Shown piece by piece: positions 92-17,546 of a DNA stretch of 24,700 nt. A program made the translations under genes and the position numbers. The first letter of the stretch is position 1, and the number at the start of each line of letters is the position of its first letter. Source of the stretch: a virus. The stretch covers positions 1 through 24,700 of the IMG/VR virus record IMGVR_UViG_3300049491_000613; one strand, given 5' to 3'. The notes beneath the pieces were generated by a model, which worked only from the letters and a program-made list of their open reading frames with translations, searched no databases and had not been told where the DNA came from.

Positions 92-272
92 TTGAGTACC
101 GTGTGTCGCGTAGCAGGTAATCACTCATTCGAGCGTGACAAACAAAAACGGCGTTTTCTCCTGCTAGTTTTGCGATTTCGTACTTTCGTAGGTTAGGGTT
201 TTGTTTGATTAAATCCAGCACGTGATTACGTCGTTCAATCCAGGTTTTACGCTGCTCGGTTTGAAGGGTCAT
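1..272 (-). CDS. Partial hypothetical protein, HTH-like N-terminus
   Basis: An open frame of 90 codons starts at ATG 272 and runs off the left edge. The start is supported by a 4-bp ATGA overlap with the stop of the methyltransferase gene and a G-rich ribosome site (GGGGGGTG) just upstream. The first 55 residues are basic, with a stretch resembling a helix-turn-helix (LDLIKQNPNLRKYEIAKLAG), so a small DNA-binding protein is possible. The reading continues through the CRISPR-like repeat at 1-91 in two different frames, so the distal residues may not be conserved protein. Function unknown; the C-terminus is outside the window. Confidence 0.55.
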   Translation of the reverse strand, partial: MTLQTEQRKTWIERRNHVLDLIKQNPNLRKYEIAKLAGENAVFVCHARMSDYLLRDTRYSNFSPLSLEDVSYTKCKQSRDSSPERISVLY

Positions 273-1162
273 GATGCACCCCCCAAAATGGTTTGCATAA
301 TGCCTTTAGCAAATCGTGGCGGTATAGCATTACCAATCAGCGTGTACTGATGAGTTTTGGGCAAATGCTTAATCGGCTCGAGTGGCACACCTTGGAGGTC
401 GACACACTCGAGAATTGACCGCCCAGTAAAATTGACCTTACGCGTTGCTGGATTTGTGCTTGTATGCCCCGTATGTTCGCTTGCTGTTGGTGCTCGAGAC
501 CATTTCGTTTCCCTGCTCCGCCCTTGATCGCGGTTGGCAAGCTTTCGAGCTTTTCGCTTTTCCTCAGAATCCCACAAACCCGCGACTAGGGTATCAGACG
601 GGAAAGGCTCGAGATTCATGCCAGATGGTTCATGGGATTCTGGTACGTCTGCCATCGGTCCAAACAACGTCCAAGGTGCATTGATCGTGATGATGACTCG
701 CCGACGCAATTGAGCCACACCGAACCACCACGCGGGAATCAAATTGATGTCGCACGTCAAACCTAATTTCTTGCACGCGCTACGCAGTTCCTCAAGTTCA
801 GCTTTGCCATCGGATTCAACGGCAAGCCCTGGCACGTTCTCGAGTACCGCAAATTTTGCAAACTGAACTTGATGCGCGAAATGGGCAAGGCTGTAATAAC
901 TCGAGTGTGATTTACCACGTCTGACACGGTTTGCTGTGCTCCAAGGTTGGCAAGGCAACGATGCCCAAACAATCCGTCCTTTTAATTCTTCGGGTTCAAT
1001 GGTTTTCACATCCCGAAGTTCACACGGAACACCAGGATGCCAGCGTTTATGAGCGTCTACGGCAATCTGCCAATTATCAAAAGATTTTTCAATCTCGAGT
1101 CCAGCCGCAATAATGCCAGCACTCGCCCCACCGTACCCACAGCACAATTCAATGACTTTCAT
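269..1162 (-). CDS. C5-cytosine DNA methyltransferase
   Basis: A 297-aa Dcm-type enzyme that would transfer a methyl group from S-adenosylmethionine to carbon 5 of cytosine in a specific DNA site. The ordered motifs are present: I, ELCCGYGG near residue 5 (cofactor binding); IV, PCQPWS at 70-75 with the catalytic Cys71; VI, ENVPG at 108-112; VIII, QLRRR at 151-155; X, IGNAIPP at 276-282. The target-recognition part between VIII and X is short (about 90 residues), so the protein lies at the small end of the family. No restriction nuclease is adjacent, so it is an orphan phage methylase, probably protecting phage DNA or marking it. It is the next-to-last gene visible in the early operon, with ATGA overlaps at both ends. 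Site specificity cannot be read from the sequence. Confidence 0.93.
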   Translation of the reverse strand: MKVIELCCGYGGASAGIIAAGLEIEKSFDNWQIAVDAHKRWHPGVPCELRDVKTIEPEELKGRIVWASLPCQPWSTANRVRRGKSHSSYYSLAHFAHQVQFAKFAVLENVPGLAVESDGKAELEELRSACKKLGLTCDINLIPAWWFGVAQLRRRVIITINAPWTLFGPMADVPESHEPSGMNLEPFPSDTLVAGLWDSEEKRKARKLANRDQGRSRETKWSRAPTASEHTGHTSTNPATRKVNFTGRSILECVDLQGVPLEPIKHLPKTHQYTLIGNAIPPRFAKGIMQTILGGAS

Positions 1163-4767: not shown

Positions 4768-5573
4768 CAGTCATCTCCAATGATTGGTTTTAATTCATTC
4801 CGAATTCGTACTGGTTCAATTTGGGTGTGAGGTTGCTTACTTGGGAAAACACCTGACCAACTTCCGTTGATAGATTTTTCCAAACAAGCGATAGGGTCAG
4901 AATCAGCAAGTAAAACCTTGAACTGTTTTCGGTCTGAAAAAATCGAACAAGGTTTTTTTAGTTCTTTAGTTCGGAATTCATTCCATTCAATCCAAGCTTG
5001 TTCAAATCCTTGAATCTTCAAAAGCTTTTCAGGTATCTCGAGTCTCTCTTTTGAAGATTTTTTAACTTTTGAAGATTTTTTAACTGTATGTGTATTTGTA
5101 AGTGTAACTGCTTCCTTATATACATCAGCGCCTTTTCTGTAGCCCTGCATTAGCGCCTTTTCCTGCTGTTGCATTAGCGCCAAACCTGCATCATGGGTTA
5201 GCGCCTTTTGTGCATACTGGTCAAGCGCTTTTTGAACATGAATTTCAAAAACTATGTAATCCAACCGATACCACAAAGTTCGATCTCGAGTGTCATCACA
5301 TAATGGTTCAGCAATTACAACACCCGATTTCCTAAGTTCATTTAAAGCATCCCAAATGGTTCGTTCATTCATGAACCAGAATTTTTCACCCCATTCGGCT
5401 CGAGTGTTGTAAACCCACGCAAAACCATTTTTAAAATTCTGGGTTTTACGTTCGTTGATCCCACACCACCAGTGAATCTCTTGAAGGACGACAGCGTTTG
5501 TCCAACCAAATACAAATACGAGGGATGGTTGCACGATCAATGGCTGTTCATCCAAAAGGTATCTCATGGTCAT
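4767..5573 (-). CDS. Phage replication initiator, winged-helix (O/DnaD-like)
   Basis: A 268-aa origin-binding and helicase-loading type protein. The start is ATG 5573 ([10 protein letters not shown]), coupled by ATGA to the upstream gene with GGGGGG about 10 nt before; the same frame is open far upstream only because it runs through the repeat array. Residues 15-105 form the typical N-terminal winged-helix domain of phage replication proteins ([35 protein letters not shown]). Next comes a region of 8-aa KAL repeats coded by iterons (about 115-150), a Lys/Ser linker coded by an 18-bp tandem repeat, and a C-terminal helical domain ([26 protein letters not shown]) of the kind that binds the helicase in DnaD-type proteins. 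It is directly followed by dnaB. The gene contains its own putative origin. Confidence 0.85.
5049..5234 (-). other. Putative replication origin: five iterons plus AT-rich tract
   Basis: Inside the initiator gene the core GGCGCT (one copy AGCGCT) recurs five times; on the plus strand AGCGC starts at 5127, 5152, 5176, 5200 and 5224, spacings of 25, 24, 24 and 24 bp. The fuller minus-strand consensus is about AAAAGGCGCTAATGCA. Directly beyond, at 5049-5125, lies a very AT-rich stretch with an 18-bp perfect tandem repeat (5049-5066 and 5067-5084). Iterons followed by an AT-rich unwinding region within the initiator gene is the lambda O/ori design, in the same order relative to transcription. The 25-bp step puts one iteron out of frame with the other four, so DNA sequence rather than protein seems to be kept. 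Confidence 0.7.
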
Positions 5574-6535
5574 TTGCTTGTTTCCCCCCGTCGTTCGGGG
5601 TAGGTGAGGCGAGCCATAAACAATTGACTTGCCGCATCCCATGCCGCATCCCTTGCCGCACCCCATGCCGCAGCCCTTGCTATTACCGCATCCCTTGCCG
5701 CATCCCTTGCCGCATCCCTTGCCGTAGCCCTTGCCGCATCCCTTGCCGCACTCCATGCCGCAGCCCACGCCGCATCCCTTACCGCATCCCTTGCCGCATC
5801 CCATGCCGTATCCCATGCCGTAGCCCATGCCGTAGCCCGTGCCGCATCCCTTGCCGCATCCCTTGCCGCATCCCATGCCGCATCCCTTGCCGCATCGCTT
5901 GCTATTGCCGTAGCACTTACCGCATCCCTTGCCGCACTCCATGCCGCAGCCCTTGCCGCAGCCTTTACCGCATCGCTTGCTATTGCCGTAGCCCATGCCG
6001 TAGCCCTTGCCGCATCCCTTGCCGCAGCCCACGCCGCATCCCATGCCGCATCGCTTGCCGCAGTCAATTGTTCATGGCTCGCCTCACCTACCGCGAACGC
6101 ACGACTTACGGCGATGCAATCTCGAGGGCGGCTATCGTCGGGTTTTTCTGTCTCAAAAATCGGTAGCACCATTTCAGCGCAATCACACGCAAAAAGTCTG
6201 GCAATACAGTTTACGGTGTTCGTGTCCGCAACAGTTCGTAGTGCCCAAATGGCATCGTCTAGACCATTTGATTCAAGAATTTGTAACAGGTTGATTGGTT
6301 GCTCATCCGCCCAATCCGTGCCCAAATTTTTGACCAATTTTTGATAACTTCCATCTTCGTCAACCTGCCCGCAAGCTTCAAACCTGCGTAACCGTCTCAA
6401 ATTTGTTTCGAGTACAACGGGTTGAATGTTTTGTTTTCCTAGGATTTCGGTTACACTAGCGTTCCAATCAGTCATAATTTGGGTCATTTTTGCCTCCAGT
6501 TTTTCTTTAGTGCGGTTCGGGGTAATATCACTCAT
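5570..6535 (-). CDS. Imm5-like protein with long Ala/Trp/Arg/Asp repeat domain
   Basis: A 321-aa protein. Residues about 85-155 (ALRTVADTN..., then [16 protein letters not shown], then D[19 protein letters not shown]) match what I know of the putative immunity protein Imm5 family of phages and toxin-immunity loci, where this segment leads into Ala-rich repeats. Here about 140 residues follow, made of irregular copies of AARDAAWDA, coded by a GC-rich 12-bp repeat. The array ends abruptly in [13 protein letters not shown], coded by an inverted copy of the DNA that codes [13 protein letters not shown] before the array. ATGA overlaps join it to the neighbours on both sides. The role is unknown; a helical repeat scaffold is likely. 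Base composition and the scarcity of CTCGAG set it apart from its neighbours, as for transferred DNA. Confidence 0.8.
5592..5629. repeat. 38-bp inverted repeat, left arm
   Basis: Matches the reverse complement of 6062-6099 at 36 of 38 positions (mismatches at 5598 and within CATaAAC/CATgAAC). It codes the C-terminal [13 protein letters not shown] of the Ala-repeat protein. Together with the right arm it brackets exactly 432 bp of repeat array. Confidence 0.9.
5630..6061. repeat. GC-rich 12-bp degenerate tandem array, 432 bp
   Basis: About 36 degenerate copies of a 12-bp unit (plus strand close to CCGCATCCCTTG). The unit length is a multiple of three and lacks stops, so several frames are open: minus strand AARDAAW-like (the gene product), minus strand Cys/Gly-rich, and plus strand RIPCRSPC-like. 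It contains no CTCGAG. Expansion, contraction and slippage are likely in such an array. Confidence 0.9.
6062..6099. repeat. 38-bp inverted repeat, right arm
   Basis: Inverted partner of 5592-5629. It codes [13 protein letters not shown], the natural end of the Imm5-like segment, so this arm is probably the original and the left arm the copy. Confidence 0.9.
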
Positions 6536-6705
6536 TCGCTTAATTCACCCCGTTCAAATGTGCTGTCAAGAAAAATCAATTGACGCAGTTCCTCAACCGC
6601 ATCAATTACATAAACTGCATAGGTTGCTGCATTGGCTGCATTGGCTGCATCAACCGCTTTGGCTACATTGGCTGTATAGGCTACATGGGCTTTAATGGTT
6701 GACAT
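6532..6705 (-). CDS. Small Ala-rich helical protein, 57 aa
   Basis: Start taken as ATG 6705 ([10 protein letters not shown]), overlapping the end of bet by 14 nt; the stop overlaps the next gene as ATGA. Residues 10-35 are Ala-rich ([16 protein letters not shown]), a weaker echo of the repeat domain in the next gene, ending in [14 protein letters not shown]. It may be a detached N-terminal or partner segment of that Ala-repeat family. Function unknown. Confidence 0.65.
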
Positions 6706-7624
6706 CCATAAACACATCCAGCGCGAGTGGTAAATCATCACCATCGCCTAACGGATTCGCTTTGATAAACTCTACAAACCCATCCACAAACGCCAGCAAA
6801 CCCTTAAACGATGTCCGTAGGATTTCTTCGCCAGGCGCGTAAGTCAAATCACCCAAGAATTTCTGATAAACCATGTACCGCATGTCATCCGAAAAGTTGA
6901 ACCCTTGAAATGCTTTAGCGAGCCTGACTTTTTCACCCTGTCCAATAAATTCCGATGTTTGAACACTCGAGCCTCGAGTCACGCCAGGAATTTCAACTGG
7001 TTTGACTTCCCGAGGTTCAGGTTTTGATTCAGACGCAAATGTTGTTTCAATGATTGGCTCAGTGTTCGACGACTGAGCCATTTCCTCAACCGTGTACAAA
7101 CCGCTCATATCCTGCGGAAAAGCTTTTCTAAGTGCCAGTGCCTCAGCAACTTTTGCCAGCATCAAATCTGGCATTTTTGCCCACATGCTTAAGGGTTTAC
7201 CTTCTTTTGTGGTTTGGACATACGATGTCCAACGTGCCACGGCGTACAACGGTGCTTGAAACGAACGCTTCAAAACACCAACTCGAGCGGCTGCGGGTGG
7301 TTCATTCCCAAGCCACACCTCACACCAAACCCCGTCCTGACCACACCACTCAGGACCAATCTGACCTGTGTATAGCCCAGATCGTTCTGCAACCAGTCGT
7401 AGACCATCAATTGAAACTTGAATACCCATGACGTTACGGTTGGTTCGAGAATCATAACGTTGAATAGCATAAATTTGTCGTGCGAACGGGTCTAATCCTG
7501 TGCGGTTGCATTGTTGAATAAACAACGCCAATTCATCATCAGTCGCACCTCTGGCAATGGTGCGTTTAATCAATTCGATTTGTTCTGTCCCAAGTGCACT
7601 GTTTTCTCGAGTTGCAAGTGTCAT
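6692..7624 (-). CDS. bet: Single-strand annealing protein, Bet/RecT family
   Basis: A 310-aa Red-beta type recombinase, which anneals complementary single strands for phage recombination and concatemer formation. Family signatures: [20 protein letters not shown] near 19-38, [20 protein letters not shown] at 39-58, [17 protein letters not shown], and a late [15 protein letters not shown] followed by [10 protein letters not shown], where the core ends. The last 100 residues are a variable tail, rich in Pro/Glu then helical. The stop gives a 14-nt overlap with the next gene and the start is coupled by ATGA to the gene upstream. No clear partner exonuclease is visible; one of the unknown genes or DNA outside the window may supply it. 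Confidence 0.92.
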
Positions 7625-9557: not shown

Positions 9558-9884
9558 TTACGAGAATTTATTTGAGTTCAGCCCCTTGCAGCCGACGGGT
9601 TGCCCGTCGGCCCCCCTCACGAGTTCGCCTGGAGAGAGCAAATCCGTGCGTGTGCTGCGCTCAAGCACGACGAGCGAAACGACAAACAAGGTGCCTTGCA
9701 CCGGTTCAGGAAGACCTTCGACTTCCCCAAAAACGGATTTGGAAATTTCAATTCCATCCTCAATGCGAACAATTTCTCGAGTAACTTTCACTCGAGCTAG
9801 AAATTCTGACTTCTCGAGCGTGCAGACGGAAGCGTCTGCACGGATGATATTGAGTGCGTGTGGTGTGCAGTTTACTAAGTTCAT
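9558..9884 (-). CDS. Conserved phage hypothetical protein (TPHAL family-like), 108 aa
   Basis: Start ATG 9884 with AAGGAG 6 nt upstream. The opening MNLVNCTPHALNII and the later EGLPEPVQGTLFVVS, DLLSPGELVRGADGQPVGC are typical of a small family frequent in phages and prophages with unknown function (N-terminal LTPHAI, then GLP-x-P-x-x-x-x-x-YIVS). A 9-bp hairpin (9591-9611) lies in the region coding ADGQPVG. A hairpin abuts the ribosome site and could control translation. Confidence 0.75.
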   Translation of the reverse strand: MNLVNCTPHALNIIRADASVCTLEKSEFLARVKVTREIVRIEDGIEISKSVFGEVEGLPEPVQGTLFVVSLVVLERSTRTDLLSPGELVRGADGQPVGCKGLNSNKFS

Positions 9885-9947: not shown

Positions 9948-9998
9948 CTAAATTTCGTAAACTTCTTTACTTCTCTGCTCAAGTTGAATGCGTGTCAT
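9948..9998 (-). pseudogene. Truncated third copy of the MTRIQLEQRS gene, 16 aa
   Basis: ATG 9998, 4 nt after the stop of the 343-aa gene, with AAGGAG inside that gene's end. It reads MTRIQLEQRSKEVYEI and stops. The first 57 bp match the start of the 64-aa gene (from 11347 down to 11291) with two differences, and the following bases match that gene's end (AATCTGTTTAGC-CGCTAAATT), so this is an internally deleted copy of it. The peptide may be non-functional or act as a coupling ORF. Confidence 0.65.
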
Positions 9999-10002
9999 GT
10001 GA

Positions 10003-11034
10003 TTAACTCCTTACGAATTCTGGTACGTTCAGCCCGACAGCTCGAGCTAGAGTTTTCAACTCTGAAATGTACGGTGCGGCGCGTTCAATGTTGGTTCGTA
10101 CAATTTTTTCCAGCTCGAGCGGTAAGTAATTGTCATGCTCGAGATTAAAATCTCGAATGAAATTGTTTAAGCCCTCGCTGCAAAAGCCAAGGCTTTTGCA
10201 GAGTTTCCATGTGATGAGGTCGGCTCGTTTAGCACGTCCGGTTGCTAAAATCTTTTCGCGTAAACCGCGAACAGCTGAGATCATAGAATCTGAATGATAC
10301 GTTGTACCACTCAGAGCAACAGCACAAAAATCTTCGTGATCACCGCACAGAGTTCGTTCGTAGATTTTAACGCTACCAATAGACCGTACCAACGTCACGT
10401 CAAACGCACCGTGTAAGCGGATGTTCATCAAACCCGCTTTTTTCTCAAGAATCCCCTCGAGCATGGAATTCAAGATCCAATTGCCACGCCATCCGCTCAA
10501 GTTGAGCGTTTTCGTCTCTTGAGTTTTTACGTTATCAAACCGCACTTTTCGATCTGACACCGTCACTTTTGGATGGCAGTAACTTTTGGCGTAGTAATTC
10601 CAATCTACGTCGCGGTTTTCGGAACTGGTGATAATCCAATCACCTATTTGCGCGTACTGGAATGCGTTGCCGCCCTCGAGATTCTCGAATCCGACTCGAG
10701 TTTTACGAAGTGTTGCATTGTTTGATTGTCGCGCTAAAATCGCGCGTTCAATCGCAATCTCGAGCGTAATTTTTTCATTAGGATGCTTCATGCGATCAAT
10801 AAAACCGTTCGTTCTGTACATTTTGTTGACTTCCGGCGCGACACTTTCTTCTTTTTGCGGCTGTCGCATTTTGGCTTTCAACTCAAGCATTTTGAACACT
10901 CGAGCCTCTAATTCTGCTCGCAACCTCGGAGCGCCCCTTTTACCTTCGAAAATTTCAGGATTTAGGTGTGGGTGATGCTTAACGACCAACGCGTATTCGT
11001 GCCTACTTCTTTGCTCGAGTTGAATGCGTGTCAT
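10003..11034 (-). CDS. Hypothetical protein, 343 aa
   Basis: The largest unknown early gene. I set the start at ATG 11034 (MTRIQLEQRSRHEYAL): AAGGAG lies 8 nt before it and the same start and leader occur in two other copies; the frame is open 24 codons further but only through the duplicated leader. The first 120 residues are basic and helical; the middle has strands and WNYYAKSYCHP, LSGWRGNWILNSMLEGIL; the end has ADLITWKLCKSLGFCSEGLN and a helical tail. Cys/His are scattered without a clear zinc motif. I do not recognise the family. Two palindromes lie within it (10139-10154, 10178-10201). Confidence 0.75.
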   Translation of the reverse strand: MTRIQLEQRSRHEYALVVKHHPHLNPEIFEGKRGAPRLRAELEARVFKMLELKAKMRQPQKEESVAPEVNKMYRTNGFIDRMKHPNEKITLEIAIERAILARQSNNATLRKTRVGFENLEGGNAFQYAQIGDWIITSSENRDVDWNYYAKSYCHPKVTVSDRKVRFDNVKTQETKTLNLSGWRGNWILNSMLEGILEKKAGLMNIRLHGAFDVTLVRSIGSVKIYERTLCGDHEDFCAVALSGTTYHSDSMISAVRGLREKILATGRAKRADLITWKLCKSLGFCSEGLNNFIRDFNLEHDNYLPLELEKIVRTNIERAAPYISELKTLARAVGLNVPEFVRS

Positions 11035-11111
11035 GTGATTAACTCCTTCTCGAGTTAGTGCTCGAGTCACACGAGAATTCTTATTTTCTATCAGAGTCTC
11101 GAGCAACTGCT
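11004..11111. repeat. 108-bp direct repeat (leader plus gene start), copy A
   Basis: Identical to 11303-11410 at every base as far as I can read, offset 299 bp. On the minus strand it comprises an untranslated leader with two CTCGAG hairpin arms, the AAGGAG ribosome site and the first ten codons (MTRIQLEQRS). The promoter upstream of copy B is not part of the repeat. Confidence 0.95.
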
Positions 11112-11138: not shown

Positions 11139-11333
11139 TTAGCGCGCTAAATTCTGACTGATGCAATCAATAAGTGCTTGCCATTGTGTACGCCCAAACC
11201 CCAGTTTGAGCACCTGCCCCGCCCTCGATTCCGCTACCCATTCTCGTGCTTCGGTTTCGGTGGGAATTGTGTAACAGGTAAAGCCGTGCTCGTAAACTTC
11301 TTTACTTCTTTGCTCGAGTTGAATGCGTGTCAT
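11139..11333 (-). CDS. Hypothetical protein, 64 aa (first gene of early operon)
   Basis: Start ATG 11333 (MTRIQLEQRSKEVYEH) with AAGGAG 8 nt upstream, inside the 108-bp repeat. Contains TCYTIPTETEAREWVAES, then a basic segment and helix. The stop lies in a 14-bp perfect palindrome TTTAGCGCGCTAAA (11138-11151), whose close relative follows the truncated copy near 9940-9953. It is first behind the strong leftward promoter and shares its opening ten codons with the next gene. Confidence 0.7.
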   Translation of the reverse strand: MTRIQLEQRSKEVYEHGFTCYTIPTETEAREWVAESRAGQVLKLGFGRTQWQALIDCISQNLAR

Positions 11334-12213: not shown

Positions 12214-12660
12214 ATGGCACGAGGTTCAAAATACAGTGATGAATTCGTAGCACAAGTACTAGCACAATGCGATCTAAGCACCAACGTATCCGAAGTGCTA
12301 AAACAGCATCGCATCTCGAGTAGTACACACTTCGACTGGATGAACAGATCAGAGCGTGACGAAAGGCTCGGGAAACTTCGGATGAGCAAGAGAAAAGAGC
12401 TTGAGAAAGAGTGGAAACGCTTTGCAATTTCGAGTTTACGCAAAGCGTTTCAGCGCTCAAACGTCCTCCTGGACGCATGTAATAAACCAGAGCATCTCGA
12501 GTACATCAATCAGCACATTAAGACTGTTGGTGAGCTAGCGGTTAACATCGAGGTGTTGAATGATCTTGGACAAACAGAAACTCAAATTACTCAAGATCAC
12601 TCCTCGAGTCAGAGCGGCGCTCGAGGAGAAGTTAACGCGTCAGGCACAGCAGTTAATTAG
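12214..12660 (+). CDS. terS: Terminase small subunit (HTH protein)
   Basis: 148 aa from ATG 12214 (MARGSKYSDEF), AAAGGA 10 nt upstream; an in-frame TTG at 12190 has no such site. Residues 5-40 form an HTH of the terminase/transposase-OrfA kind (YSDEFVAQVLAQCDLSTNVS, KQHRISSSTHFDWMNR), the DNA-recognition part of the packaging complex. A basic helix and a long helical oligomerisation segment follow, then a Ser/Gly tail. The large subunit starts 100 bp before its end. The assignment rests on the HTH plus position; sequence alone would not exclude an unrelated HTH protein. Confidence 0.7.
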   Translation: MARGSKYSDEFVAQVLAQCDLSTNVSEVLKQHRISSSTHFDWMNRSERDERLGKLRMSKRKELEKEWKRFAISSLRKAFQRSNVLLDACNKPEHLEYINQHIKTVGELAVNIEVLNDLGQTETQITQDHSSSQSGARGEVNASGTAVN

Positions 12661-14143
12661 TTTGAATCGCTCGAGAACACTGAATTCAGAGCTTCAAATT
12701 GATCGTCCACTTGGTCCAATTCAAGAGAAGTACGTTTCGTTTGTAATGCGTGAGGCACGCATTGGTTTCAAAGAATCACATTTTCGTGGTGGCTTCGGAA
12801 CTGGTAAAAGCACAGCGCTAGTTGAGCGTCACGGACGGTACAGATTGAAGTATCCTGGTAGTCCAGGATTGGTGTGCAGAGCGAACTTGAGCGTGTTTCA
12901 ACGCACTACGCTCGTACCGTTCCGGAAGTTGTGGAGCGCTTACGGTGAGTTCAAAAACGATGAGAGCGAATTCCATTGGTTCAATGGTTCAATCTCGTAT
13001 TTTTTTGGTTTAAACGCGATCAATAGCCTCGCGGCATTGAAGTCTTTCGAAGCGCTAGACGTTGCCATAGACGAAGCGGATGAGATTACTCTCGAGCTTT
13101 ACCGTATCGCAAATGGTCGGACACGCTGGCAGCCGTCTGGTGCGTTGCGCGCGCAGTACATTCGTGATGGTTTGTGCACACCGTATTTGGATAAAAATGG
13201 TGTGGAACAGCTTGGTTTGCCGTACACCACGGATTCTGTATCAAATTTCAATGGTAAAGATTGGGTTTATTATCGCTTCAAAGAAAAGCGGCATGCTGAT
13301 GAAGAAGTTGCGTCTAGAGCGTACTTTGAAGCTCAAACGTTTGAGAATCACAGCAATCCGGAAGGATACGTCGAAGACCTACTAAACGATAACGGTGAAG
13401 AATTCGTCAAGCGCTTCGTGTACGGCGATGATTCCATCAATTTCGGACGCATCCTCACGAAATGGAATGGCTCGAGAGATGATGATGGTAATCCACTCGC
13501 TGGTAGCAACCTATTTTACCCTGCGGACATTCCAGATCATTGGTCGTTGTACGTCGGTGTAGACGTTGGATTTCAGCATCCTACAGCTGGTTTGATAGCT
13601 CGAGTTTCCGAGGACGGACGCATCTGGATTACACACGAATATCTTGAAGCGGAACGTGTAGCACTCGAGAATGCTCGAGGTATCAAGAGCTTGTGTGGTA
13701 CGACGAAAATCACGAGCACGTATGGTAGTCCTGATGCGGCGAGGAAAGACCAAACCAGTGGTCGTAGCGCATCTGATGATTATCGCACGGCTGGCATCAC
13801 CATCATTCCTGCGATGCTCAACCACGATGATAGCGTGAACACCGTTAATACGATGCTCCGACCAATACAACTCGAGCCTGGTCAAACGAGCAAACCTCGA
13901 GTGATGGTGAGCACGTCGTGTACACGGTTGATACAGCAAATCGAGGGTTACACGTGGCAGTTGAGACGCAAAAAAGCAAATTCTGGTAGTCAAAAAACTG
14001 ATCCGACAGGTGGTGATTGGGATTTGTATGACACGTTCAGGATGTTGTTGTGTTCGATTCCTGTCACATCTCGAGCACCCGCTGATGGTATTCTGAGTGC
14101 ACCTGTCCGTGTGGAAAAACGGAAGATGCTTGGAGGGTACTGA
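12560..14143 (+). CDS. terL: Terminase large subunit
   Basis: 527-aa packaging motor with ATPase and nuclease. Walker A GGFGTGKST at 77-85, Walker B LDVAIDEADE at 166-175 with the catalytic Glu next to Asp, then TRWQPSGAL as coupling region. The nuclease domain opens with YVGVDVGFQHPTAG (Asp335) and continues with acidic segments such as YGSPDAARKDQ. The start at 12560 (GAGGTG upstream) overlaps the small subunit by 101 bp, long but common for terminase pairs; a later start would still keep all motifs. It ends RKMLGGY, the same ending as the last gene of the following cassette. Confidence 0.93.
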   Translation: MILDKQKLKLLKITPRVRAALEEKLTRQAQQLISLNRSRTLNSELQIDRPLGPIQEKYVSFVMREARIGFKESHFRGGFGTGKSTALVERHGRYRLKYPGSPGLVCRANLSVFQRTTLVPFRKLWSAYGEFKNDESEFHWFNGSISYFFGLNAINSLAALKSFEALDVAIDEADEITLELYRIANGRTRWQPSGALRAQYIRDGLCTPYLDKNGVEQLGLPYTTDSVSNFNGKDWVYYRFKEKRHADEEVASRAYFEAQTFENHSNPEGYVEDLLNDNGEEFVKRFVYGDDSINFGRILTKWNGSRDDDGNPLAGSNLFYPADIPDHWSLYVGVDVGFQHPTAGLIARVSEDGRIWITHEYLEAERVALENARGIKSLCGTTKITSTYGSPDAARKDQTSGRSASDDYRTAGITIIPAMLNHDDSVNTVNTMLRPIQLEPGQTSKPRVMVSTSCTRLIQQIEGYTWQLRRKKANSGSQKTDPTGGDWDLYDTFRMLLCSIPVTSRAPADGILSAPVRVEKRKMLGGY

Positions 14144-14146
14144 ATG
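14120..14146 (+). repeat. 27-bp direct repeat, left boundary of cassette
   Basis: Covers the codons for RKMLGGY, the stop TGA, a GGAGGG ribosome site and the following ATG. It matches 15696-15722 at 26 of 27 positions. Confidence 0.9.
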
Positions 14147-14437
14147 AGTCCTGAAATGGTGGAATCAATCCGTGCTGCTCGAGAATATCTTGAGCAGCCA
14201 ATAAATTTAATGTTGTTAGAAAGCATTCCAAACGTTATGAAAAAGGTTGAACGTTTGAACGAACATGAGCAAGTAGGTGATATGGGTTCTGTTTTCAGTT
14301 ATACGAGATGGTTGTACCGTGCTGCTCGAGAGAATGGTTTCATTCCAGTGGATAATCCGTTTGTTTCAGTGTTCCCTGAGGCACCTCTCACGGCTGTCTG
14401 CTTTATTTCTGATTTAACCGTGGCACTTAACTTATAA
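14144..14437 (+). CDS. Hypothetical protein, 97 aa
   Basis: Starts immediately after the terminase stop (TGA-ATG) with GGAGGG as ribosome site. Helical; contains SIRAAREYLEQPINLMLLES and a C-terminal hydrophobic run (AVCFISDLTVALNL) that could be a buried helix. The 102 bp after it (14438-14539) hold no gene that I can see. First member of the inserted cassette; function unknown. Confidence 0.7.
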   Translation: MSPEMVESIRAAREYLEQPINLMLLESIPNVMKKVERLNEHEQVGDMGSVFSYTRWLYRAARENGFIPVDNPFVSVFPEAPLTAVCFISDLTVALNL

Positions 14438-14539
14438 CAGAATAACTCGAGTGTTTTCCTAGCATTTTGAGACACTTTCGCGCCATATCTCAAAAGCATT
14501 ACGGGATTAACAGAATCTTCTTAAGCGGAGGAAGGCATC

Positions 14540-14866
14540 ATGACATATGAAGAATTTCAAAGACTGAACAACCAAGAACCACAACAACTTTTTGAATGCG
14601 GCTGGATAGATTCCAACATTCATAATCTAACTCGAGGGTTCACGCCAGAACACGCGGCTTACAAATTCTTGCAACAGTTCATGGAATTCTCTAATTTTAC
14701 TGGTAGTACAATCAAAATTTCAGTACGCAGTAGGCAATTTTACGGATTTGAATTTTTTACGTTTCAATTCCCAAGACTCGAGCCTGAAATGTTTTTTCCA
14801 AAACAAGTTTATGTTTCAAACAAATTTGTTGACCAGCACAACAAGATTGCCAAAGGAGAATCATGA
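14540..14866 (+). CDS. Hypothetical protein, 108 aa
   Basis: ATG 14540 with GGAGGAAGG upstream, a strong ribosome site. Aromatic-rich: many Phe and Tyr in the C-terminal half (QFYGFEFFTFQFP). The next gene begins in its stop codon (ATGA). No family recognised; part of the cassette between terminase and portal. Confidence 0.7.
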   Translation: MTYEEFQRLNNQEPQQLFECGWIDSNIHNLTRGFTPEHAAYKFLQQFMEFSNFTGSTIKISVRSRQFYGFEFFTFQFPRLEPEMFFPKQVYVSNKFVDQHNKIAKGES

Positions 14867-15306
14867 TTTACCTTGTACAAAGCACACCAGATTATGAAGG
14901 ACAATTAACCCATTTTGCCACGCTCGAATTTGAAAAAGCGGAAGCGGCAGCAATCAAAATCATGCAAGGCATGAACATAGATTATCTTGAGATTTTCGCT
15001 GTACCACTCGAAATAATTAACGTACATGAATCAGAAATGCCGCAATGGGAAAGTATGGGTGTGTACCGTACTTTTGAACCTCGAGATGATATCCGAACGT
15101 TAACGGTTGAAGTCGTGCCAGGTGTTTGGAAGTCAACATCTCGAGAACCCACACTTGAAGAACTCGAGGATGAGCAACGTAAGAAAGTAAATCCGAATCG
15201 TCCTGATTGGTTGAGTCCATCATCAAGCTCAACTACTTCTTGGCTTCCTCGGATGTCGAATAGTTTAACAAGTTTTGAAGGTTGTTTTAAAACTTTTCAA
15301 GATTAA
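14863..15306 (+). CDS. Hypothetical protein, 147 aa
   Basis: Coupled by ATGA to the previous gene. The N-terminal 100 residues look like a compact alpha/beta domain (YLVQSTPDYEGQL, EKAEAAAIKIMQG); then an acidic linker (TLEELEDEQRKK) and a Ser-rich disordered tail ending in Phe/Thr. No known family. Confidence 0.7.
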   Translation: MIYLVQSTPDYEGQLTHFATLEFEKAEAAAIKIMQGMNIDYLEIFAVPLEIINVHESEMPQWESMGVYRTFEPRDDIRTLTVEVVPGVWKSTSREPTLEELEDEQRKKVNPNRPDWLSPSSSSTTSWLPRMSNSLTSFEGCFKTFQD

Positions 15307-15317
15307 GGGGGTATTGA

Positions 15318-15434
15318 ATGCGTCGTAAAATCTTAAAATGGGTGTTGAATTTGCCACAAAGTCGGTTCACGTACTGGTTTGCACCTCGAGCGTTGGGTTT
15401 ATTGTTGAGTGCTCGAGCAAAACGGGTGAAATAA
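15318..15434 (+). CDS. Small basic protein, 38 aa
   Basis: ATG 15318 with AAGGGGG 6 nt before it; the stop TAA is at 15432. Strongly basic with a hydrophobic stretch (MRRKILKWVLNLPQSRFTYW; ALGLLLSARAKRVK), so amphipathic or membrane-associated. Two CTCGAG sites lie inside it. Short, but well supported by its ribosome site and its fit between two real genes. Confidence 0.5.
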   Translation: MRRKILKWVLNLPQSRFTYWFAPRALGLLLSARAKRVK

Positions 15435-15449
15435 TTTGGAAGGTGAAAC

Positions 15450-15719
15450 ATGCCTGATTACATGGCTAAACTCGAGTTTGATGATGGACAACAACGAACC
15501 ATTCGTTTTTTTGCTAAAAACGAACAAGTTGCAGGAGAGTTTGCTGCTGAGCATTTCATTCAATCTGGGGGGACGTATCGAATGATGCAACTCAAACCAG
15601 ATGAAAAAAACGATCATGATGTGGATATCATTTTGTGTTGGGATGGGGTTGAATTTGTTCCTCGAGAATTAAACCCTATAACACCTTCAAAAACTCGGAA
15701 AATGCTTGGAGGGTACTGA
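15450..15719 (+). CDS. Hypothetical protein, 89 aa
   Basis: ATG 15450 with GGAAGG upstream. Small alpha/beta domain (YMAKLEFDDGQQRTIRFFAK) resembling a general phage accessory fold; an acidic middle; the C-terminal RKMLGGY is shared with the large terminase because of the 27-bp repeat. The stop is directly followed by the portal ATG. Confidence 0.7.
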   Translation: MPDYMAKLEFDDGQQRTIRFFAKNEQVAGEFAAEHFIQSGGTYRMMQLKPDEKNDHDVDIILCWDGVEFVPRELNPITPSKTRKMLGGY

Positions 15720-15722
15720 ATG
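15696..15722 (+). repeat. 27-bp direct repeat, right boundary of cassette
   Basis: One mismatch to 14120-14146. It restores the same stop/ribosome site/start arrangement before the portal gene, so deletion between the two repeats would leave terL directly followed by the portal. Confidence 0.9.
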
Positions 15723-17546
15723 CTGACTGACTCTCAAATGAATCCACCAAATAATCAATTCGACACTGACCCACTTGAAACACCGCCAGATCAAATGGCG
15801 GTGTTTGATTTTGGGAGCGAAGAAGCTCTTAGAATCTCAAGCTTATTAAAACAAGAAATTCAACAAGCTGAACTGGAACAAGGCGATCATATTGAAAGAA
15901 TTCAGAATTTCAGAGCAATTTATGAACTTCGAGTTCCAGATCGCGAACCCGCTTGGGAAGGCGCAGCAAATTACAGAACGCCTCTCTCGAGAAACAAAGT
16001 TGATAAAGTCGCAGCGATGCTGGCGGCGGCGTTGGATCAAGACCCGTTTTTTAGTTTACGTTCTCGTACAGCGAAAGCCGAAAAAATTCGGGTTGATATT
16101 GAAGAGTACCTTGACTCGAGACTTGATGAGATTAAGATTCGTGACCATGTGTTACCTGTGATTCTTGAAACGTTAATCACTGGAACGGGAATCACAAAAA
16201 TCTTGTACGAAACGTCAGGTGTGTCACCTAACACGATCAGTCAAAATAAACTTGAGTTAGTACCAATCGAAGATTTTTTTGTTACACCAATCAACATCAC
16301 CACGCTTGATAAAGCATTTTTGGTAGCGCAACGGTTTTGGATTCCGTACTGGGAACTTGAAGAAATGTACGAGGATGGCAATGTTCAAGGGGATATTGAA
16401 GCTTTGAAGAATCAATCTTCGAGCGACAATGGCGATGAGCAAAATGCGATGCTGAATGATCTCGCAGGGCATAACACGAGTAGCACAGGGGCAAATCCTT
16501 CGTCACAGAACGTTCCGATTTTTGAGTGTTGGTGGCGTGATCGAGGTGAAATGTGGGTTACTTGGATTCATAGGAGTTCAGGTCGTATTTTGAAGCATGA
16601 ACGCAACCCGTTCAATCATGCTCGAGCACCATTCACGTTGCATAAATACTGGGTTAAACCCAATTTCTTGTTTGGTACAAGCATGGTTGAATTGCTCGAA
16701 AGTACGCAACTCGAGTTAGATGCGGTGACGAATGCCAGAACTGATGCGAACAGCCTAGCCATTGGTGGGTTGTTCCTTGTTGAAGATGGCAGTAAAGCGC
16801 AACGTTGGTTATCAGAAACAGGGAATACGTTCGCGCCTGGTGCTCAAATTACGGTAAACAGTTTGAAAGACCCTGGGATTCTGCAATTCAACATTGCAGG
16901 CGCGAACCCAGTATCGTTGCAAGATCAACAATTACTATTCCAGTTTGCGGATAAAAGCACGATTCCAGACTCGAGTCTGGCACAACCTTTAACAAATCGT
17001 GACCCTACAGCAACAGAGGTTAATCGAGATCAAAGTGTTGTAACAGTGGTAGTCAAAGCTTGGTTACATTGTTTGCATCAGGGTTTACGTGAACTTGGAT
17101 TTTTTGTGATGCACAACTTGCATCAATTTGAAGTATCTCCAAGCATTGTCATCAACCCTGATATGAGTATTTCAAATGGTACGCTCGAGTTTTTGAGCAC
17201 TGACAAAACCCGAACGATTAAGTCTGATGAGATGTTCTTATCAGATTTTGATCTTGAAGTGAACGGGCGTGAAACACAAACCATGCAAGTCGAACGGCGT
17301 CAACAATTTATGATTGCTTTCCAGTTGGTTATGCCAGTTTTGCAACAACTGCAAGGACAACCAATAAGTGATTCTCGAGTGTACGCCATGTTGAAAGGTT
17401 TACTTGAAGCCAATGGGATTAAGAATTGGGAAGAGTTCTTAGGTCCAAGCCCTCAACCCATTGCAGATATTACACATCAGTTAAACGCGACTGCAATGCA
17501 AAACCAAATGCAGAAAATGCTTGATGACCAATCCAAAGGCAGGTGA
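15720..17546 (+). CDS. Portal protein
   Basis: 608 aa. The place right behind terminase, the size, and sequence features identify it as the dodecameric portal through which DNA is packaged. N-terminal disordered acidic segment (1-60), then EGAANYRTPLSRNKVDKVAAM and a LARxxxxxD-like helical core, ILETLITGTGITKILYE, VPIEDFFVTP (typical of P22-like and other large portals), the WWRDRGEMWVTWIH strand region, KYWVKPNFLFGTSMVELLES and a long C-terminal helical part ending in Gln-rich repeats. I cannot place it in one portal subfamily. Confidence 0.85.
   Translation: MLTDSQMNPPNNQFDTDPLETPPDQMAVFDFGSEEALRISSLLKQEIQQAELEQGDHIERIQNFRAIYELRVPDREPAWEGAANYRTPLSRNKVDKVAAMLAAALDQDPFFSLRSRTAKAEKIRVDIEEYLDSRLDEIKIRDHVLPVILETLITGTGITKILYETSGVSPNTISQNKLELVPIEDFFVTPINITTLDKAFLVAQRFWIPYWELEEMYEDGNVQGDIEALKNQSSSDNGDEQNAMLNDLAGHNTSSTGANPSSQNVPIFECWWRDRGEMWVTWIHRSSGRILKHERNPFNHARAPFTLHKYWVKPNFLFGTSMVELLESTQLELDAVTNARTDANSLAIGGLFLVEDGSKAQRWLSETGNTFAPGAQITVNSLKDPGILQFNIAGANPVSLQDQQLLFQFADKSTIPDSSLAQPLTNRDPTATEVNRDQSVVTVVVKAWLHCLHQGLRELGFFVMHNLHQFEVSPSIVINPDMSISNGTLEFLSTDKTRTIKSDEMFLSDFDLEVNGRETQTMQVERRQQFMIAFQLVMPVLQQLQGQPISDSRVYAMLKGLLEANGIKNWEEFLGPSPQPIADITHQLNATAMQNQMQKMLDDQSKGR

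Follow-up and report, generated by a model that had tools for sequence, protein, structure and literature searches.

Why does a block of five small genes separate the terminase large-subunit gene (terL) from the portal gene in an uncultured phage, and why is the end of terL copied at the far border of that block? An earlier note on this DNA had described the arrangement and proposed a moron-like unit that could be removed exactly by recombination between the two copies. The window analysed here, 24,700 nucleotides long, is one whole 24.7-kb IMG/VR record of an uncultured tailed phage infecting bacteria, and is probably a fragment of its genome. The features on which the analysis bears are listed in Table 1.

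Results

Setting of the locus

The head genes of the window follow the order terS, terL, the five interposed genes (designated c1 to c5), portal, a small gene, a scaffold-like gene and capsid. Compared with the TerL proteins of distant phages, that of the window shows 22-29% identity. The small-terminase slot is occupied by a transposase-type HTH protein (12214-12660, plus strand; HTH_Tnp_1 of Pfam, 7e-6). Elsewhere in the window, the phage encodes a C5 cytosine methyltransferase, predicted from sequence (269-1162, minus strand; Pfam, 2.8e-29), and an array of 12-bp repeats, about 500 nt long (5604-6099), falls within two overlapping reading frames, that of an Imm5-like gene (5570-6535) and the N-terminal part of a DnaD-like ORF.

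Table 1. Positions of the terL-portal block, its border repeats and the related features of the window
Feature	Position	Strand	Description
RecT-like single-strand annealing protein	6692-7624	-	Candidate agent of recombination at short homologies; PHROG 2780, 1.1e-67
Second unit, downstream repeat copy	9968-10011	-	RBS, ATG, MTRIQLEQRS
343-aa orphan gene	10003-11034	-	About 1 kb, early region; flanked by 44-nt repeats
Second unit, upstream repeat copy	11004-11047	-	At the start of the 343-aa gene
TerL (terminase large subunit)	12560-14143	+	Ends ...VEKRKMLGGY; PHROG 979, 8e-9; PHROG 5653, 1.7e-5
J1	14120-14146	+	Last 7 terL codons (RKMLGGY), stop, ribosome site, start codon of c1
c1	14144-14437	+	97 aa, orphan; coding signal; only a sub-cut-off NCBIfam match
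c1-c2 spacer	14438-14539	+	102 nt, imperfect hairpin
c2	14540-14866	+	108 aa, orphan; coding signal; low-confidence alpha/beta model
c3	14863-15306	+	147 aa, orphan; coding signal; 4-nt overlap of its start with the c2 stop
c4	15318-15434	+	38 aa, very basic peptide, orphan; coding signal
c5	15450-15719	+	89 aa, orphan; coding signal; predicted beta-beta-alpha-beta core, low-confidence tail ending RKMLGGY
J2	15696-15722	+	Last 7 c5 codons, stop, ribosome site, start codon of portal
Portal protein, SU10 type	15720-17546	+	Pfam SU10_portal PF23899, 4.7e-20; PHROG 1216, 3.6e-18

Five orphan genes between terL and portal

For each of c1 to c5 (5/5), the in-frame codon score was positive and above that of the other five frames, and a purine-rich ribosome site precedes each start; taken with the four-base overlap of c2 and c3, these data indicate that all five are real genes, as the earlier description of five small unknown genes implied. 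Comparison of c1 to c5 with Pfam, PHROGs, PADLOC and NCBIfam yielded no match beyond noise, the PADLOC match of c5 to defence-system models being itself at noise level, so that the anti-defence or exclusion function suggested earlier finds no backing in these collections. Likewise, c1, c2, c3 and c5 had no match among phage records, c2 and c3 had none among IMG/VR contigs, and no significant homology was detected among the five proteins themselves. When single-sequence models (pLDDT 54.6 and 62.5) were used for fold searches, nothing was returned at E <= 0.001; a beta-beta-alpha-beta core like that of the c5 model is shared by many small, unnamed proteins of phages, so the likeness tells us little. 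The hairpin in the c1-c2 spacer is no stronger than in shuffled sequences (z -1.0), and a consensus scan of the plus strand from 14144 to 15719, from which host promoters may differ, revealed neither a sigma-70-like promoter nor a terminator-like site. For the five products, a role as small, late-expressed accessory proteins is the most likely one.

The end of terL is repeated at the far border of the block

The repeat, CGGAA[G/A]ATGCTTGGAGGGTACTGAATG, is present in two copies (J1 and J2) that are identical at 26 of 27 positions with a 21-nt exact core, which fully bears out the direct repeat with a single mismatch noted earlier. Similarity continues weakly upstream (32 nt at 91%), and the sole mismatch within the 27 nt is synonymous (AAG/AAA, both Lys), so that the C-terminus of c5 is a copy of the TerL arm RKMLGGY in the same reading frame. 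No further copy was found in the window at up to three mismatches, nor any in 100 dinucleotide shuffles, and about 1.7e-6 pairs matching at 26 or more of 27 positions would be expected by chance from base composition. When the regions around gene starts (27 nt upstream plus the ATG) were compared in all 561 pairs, c1 and portal agreed at 27 of 30 positions, where the average pair agreed at 10.9 (sd 3.0); the only pair to exceed them, DUFbig/geneA (30/30), is itself a duplicated region. A candidate third copy before c4 (GGGGGTATTGAATG) was dropped, as it lies within the chance expectation for ribosome sites. Inverted repeats were absent from the block borders.

Joining J1 to J2 in silico yields ...RKMLGGY*MLTDSQ..., in which TerL and portal are both complete and the ribosome site is kept; on paper, therefore, exact excision leaves a working junction, as had been claimed.

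As to which copy came first, one of the two final residues is aromatic in 13 of 22 TerL proteins (that of the window included, and several of them close kin, so that the independent cases are fewer than the count implies), versus 13% of 471 background ORFs. In phage D6E, a C-terminal arm of TerL with basic residues has been implicated in ATPase control and, probably, in portal docking (PMC5727402). Because a terminal aromatic residue is common in TerLs and such a basic arm is known from D6E, RKMLGGY appears to be the original terminus of TerL, from which the c5 copy would derive, as judged from these comparisons, and J1 is likely the ancestral terL/portal junction.

The terL-portal junction in other phages

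That terL and portal are normally neighbours was confirmed in nine of the 12 distant phages in which both genes could be located (CHOED, MQM1, 1233, TacPo2, PJNS034, GAP52, G003, MW202743 and MT836592), one or two genes lying between them in the other three; a wider search added Beans and Genamy16 to those in which portal directly follows terL. Filled junctions were seen with one gene (Sparcetus, API480 and Patience), two genes (Shocker and GurgleFerb) or seven genes (phiM6) in between, and in P1312 the annotated portal is on the other strand. Larger blocks occur in Microbacterium phages, with 17 ORFs in Quhwah and 40 in Hendrix (PMC7302621). Since other phages carry one to seven genes there, and Microbacterium phages up to 40, the terL-portal junction is a known insertion place; here, five genes of unknown function lie between two genes that adjoin in related phages. 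None of the six filled phages (Shocker, GurgleFerb, Sparcetus, phiM6, API480 and Patience) has a junction repeat, the best match between terL end and portal start being 7-8 nt, which argues that a repeat is not needed for insertion at this place. The new part is thus the repeat at the block borders.

No close relative was found in IMG/VR by TerL, portal, major capsid, c2, c3 or a degenerate junction pattern, nor by TerL in GTDB contigs, in five Deinococcales genomes and in 111 genomes from that order. A search for TerL and portal in the records surrounding 26 relatives of RecT gave only distant TerLs.

Repeats of another kind were seen in CHOED-like phages, where an exact 22-24 nt sequence stands before terL and again before the gene two after portal (L004, 3292-3314/7729-7751; L163, 2655-2678/6980-7003; L164, 2652-2673/6980-7001); these are possibly shared late promoters. 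In L115, an 18-mer that recurs at the starts of two genes was discarded as ribosome-site consensus only.

Base composition and host signature

The c1-c5 block has a GC content of 40.1%, versus 47.9% for terL and 43.0% for portal, and ranks second of 464 at the AT-rich extreme of the window for 1.5-kb stretches. GC at third codon positions (GC3) is 0.30-0.36 in c1, c2, c3 and c5 and 0.44 in c4 (38 codons), with values of 0.47 in terL and 0.39 in portal. The low GC, together with a GC3 below that of both neighbours in c1, c2, c3 and c5, suggests that the block has a history different from theirs.

The palindrome CTCGAG occurs 138 times in the window, against about 5 expected (28-fold over-representation), and is as dense in the block (12 sites in 1549 bases, 7.75 per kb) as in terL. 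In a scan of GTDB genomes for clustered CTCGAG, the densest among the loci returned were nearly all uncultured Deinococcales MAGs (6-11 per kb); CTCGAG would accordingly be a highly iterated palindrome of a Deinococcales group and would point to the host. Its density in the block shows that the block is no recent arrival from another host; it has long been in the gene pool of the same host lineage rather than freshly imported from an unrelated one.

A second repeat-bounded unit in the early region

A 343-aa orphan gene on the minus strand, flanked by 44-nt repeats that contain a ribosome site, an ATG and the codons for MTRIQLEQRS, is a second repeat-bounded unit (9968-11047) of the same design as the c1-c5 block. 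What remains after joining these repeats on paper is a reading frame of 16 codons, MTRIQLEQRSKEVYEI, which resembles the start of the neighbouring small gene (11139-11333).

Other repeats lie close by. The small gene at 11139-11333 (minus strand) is itself bounded by perfect 108-nt direct repeats (11004-11111/11303-11410, 299 nt apart), a pair that represents recent duplication or ongoing conversion. Hairpin repeats of 27 nt (9518-9544/9896-9922) flank a gene at 9558-9884 (minus strand), for which PADLOC gives a match to Unk_01, described as "sometimes fused to CARF" (7e-21). For comparison, an exact 20-nt repeat at a distance of 200-5000 nt was present in 28 of 164 other loci, many of these being coding repeats.

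Discussion

We consider it moderately probable that the five-gene block was inserted between terL and portal by short-homology recombination which duplicated the junction, and that it can be lost precisely by annealing. The insertion, its route and any loss are events that we infer, none having been seen directly. Five genes drawn from the phage gene pool of the same host would have been added at the terL/portal junction, and the event would have left that junction (TerL C-terminal arm, stop, ribosome site and ATG) at both ends. J1 now ends terL and would start translation of c1, just as J2 ends c5 and would start translation of portal; because each copy thus does a job, the block could sit silent in the late operon and remain precisely losable, annealing between J1 and J2 leading to occasional exact loss and restoring the empty junction. 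The likely agent would be the phage's own RecT-like annealing protein, which shares 62-68% identity with copies in Deinococcales genomes.

Lambda-type recombination, which is Red- and RecA-dependent, needs about 30 bp of homology (PMC2327257), and phage Rad52-like proteins recombine regions with only short common stretches (PMC3945230). A 27-nt near-identical repeat is therefore at the low edge of usable homology, yet suffices for infrequent events when phage populations are large. Such an origin is favoured by a border repeat beyond chance, the clean junction product, the direct succession of terL and portal in distant phages, the TerL-native end, the low GC, the second unit at 9968-11047 and the presence of RecT. 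Against it, the exact match of 21 nt is shorter than the roughly 30 bp minimum for efficient recombination, the six other filled junctions lack such a repeat, and the polarity of the insertion is read from relatives whose TerL identity is about 22-29%.

Several other explanations have to be weighed. The repeat could be kept for the protein it encodes, c5 using its copy of the TerL arm to dock to portal or TerL and thereby regulating, or competing in, packaging, with DNA identity as a by-product of recent copying. The repeated codons are indeed the last seven of TerL in unchanged frame, the one mismatch is synonymous, the tail of distant TerLs is often short and closes with an aromatic residue (that of phiM6 ends VFGY), and the basic arm of D6E TerL has the proposed roles cited above; however, the frame would be the same by chance in one case out of three, the c5 tail is modelled with a pLDDT below 50, and identity continues beyond the stop, through the ribosome site and up to the ATG, an extension of no use to a peptide mimic, so that we hold this explanation improbable. 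A regulatory or translation-start element used twice, with no recombination history, would suit the strong ribosome site within the repeat and its ending exactly at the ATG, and repeated start elements are known in Cluster K mycobacteriophages (PMC3203893). Such an element is nevertheless unlikely, since a search of the window that allowed up to three mismatches found just the two copies, and since the half of the repeat that precedes the ribosome site is coding and uses the same synonymous codons in both.

A one-step insertion at a staggered break, in which foreign DNA was captured and 27-nt overhangs were filled, would equally yield a target directly repeated at both ends of the insert, and would agree with the lack of a recognised recombinase or transposase gene inside it; but a target-site duplication of 27 nt would be a long one, and the block has neither terminal inverted repeats nor a mobile-element gene, and we regard this route as doubtful. 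As the window is a metagenome-derived virus record, two genomes might have been joined during assembly at a common 27-nt word. Metagenome assemblers usually work with words longer than this, the CTCGAG signature spans both flanks and the block, and the operon is continuous, all of which renders a chimera very improbable.

Orphan genes between terL and portal are often carried by phages, and their route of entry or exit is rarely visible. For the preferred history of junction-duplicating insertion, a copied junction at both borders offers a concrete route, open to testing, by which genes could be gained and lost reversibly, and the empty allele can be sought in reads. We would give little credence, for now, to a more far-reaching idea, namely that c5 took over the arm with which the terminase docks on the portal and acts as an accessory protein that competes with or tunes the packaging motor there, and, more broadly, that genomes of this lineage expand and shrink by whole cassettes, each flanked by copies of a gene junction (one gene's end plus the start site of the next), which would make gain and loss seamless. 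If the c5 arm does work, it would represent a new way of controlling DNA packaging.

Among known systems, the blocks of Microbacterium phages come close in consisting of small unknown genes placed exactly between terL and portal and co-directional with the late operon, but the available excerpt of their description (PMC7302621) contains no direct repeat of the terL end, unlike the present case. With lambdoid morons the block shares its situation between structural genes and its differing composition, but the promoter and terminator of their own that morons carry were not detected in the c1-c5 plus-strand consensus scan, so that the moron-like label given earlier is not supported in the strict sense. 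The genes of the block are absent at this place in distant relatives, no close ones having been found. A transposon or other mobile element was rejected in view of the lack of any recombinase or transposase family in c1-c5 (Pfam and PHROGs) and of border inverted repeats. The start-associated sequences of Cluster K mycobacteriophages are 13 bp long, present in many copies and mostly located at non-structural genes (PMC3203893). They resemble the present repeat in including the ribosome site right before the start codon, but the latter is 27 nt long and bounds a block, and with only two copies its membership of a family of many short ones was rejected. The mobile regulatory cassettes (PeSL) of T4-type phages, described by Arbiol and colleagues in 2010 (cited in PMC4177764), reportedly have short repeats as boundaries beside genes, and homologous recombination at these repeats has been proposed to shuffle genes. 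Repeated boundaries beside genes are common to both arrangements, but PeSL comprise an early promoter and a stem-loop and are intergenic, whereas the boundaries described here are made of coding sequence and a ribosome site and lie in the late operon.
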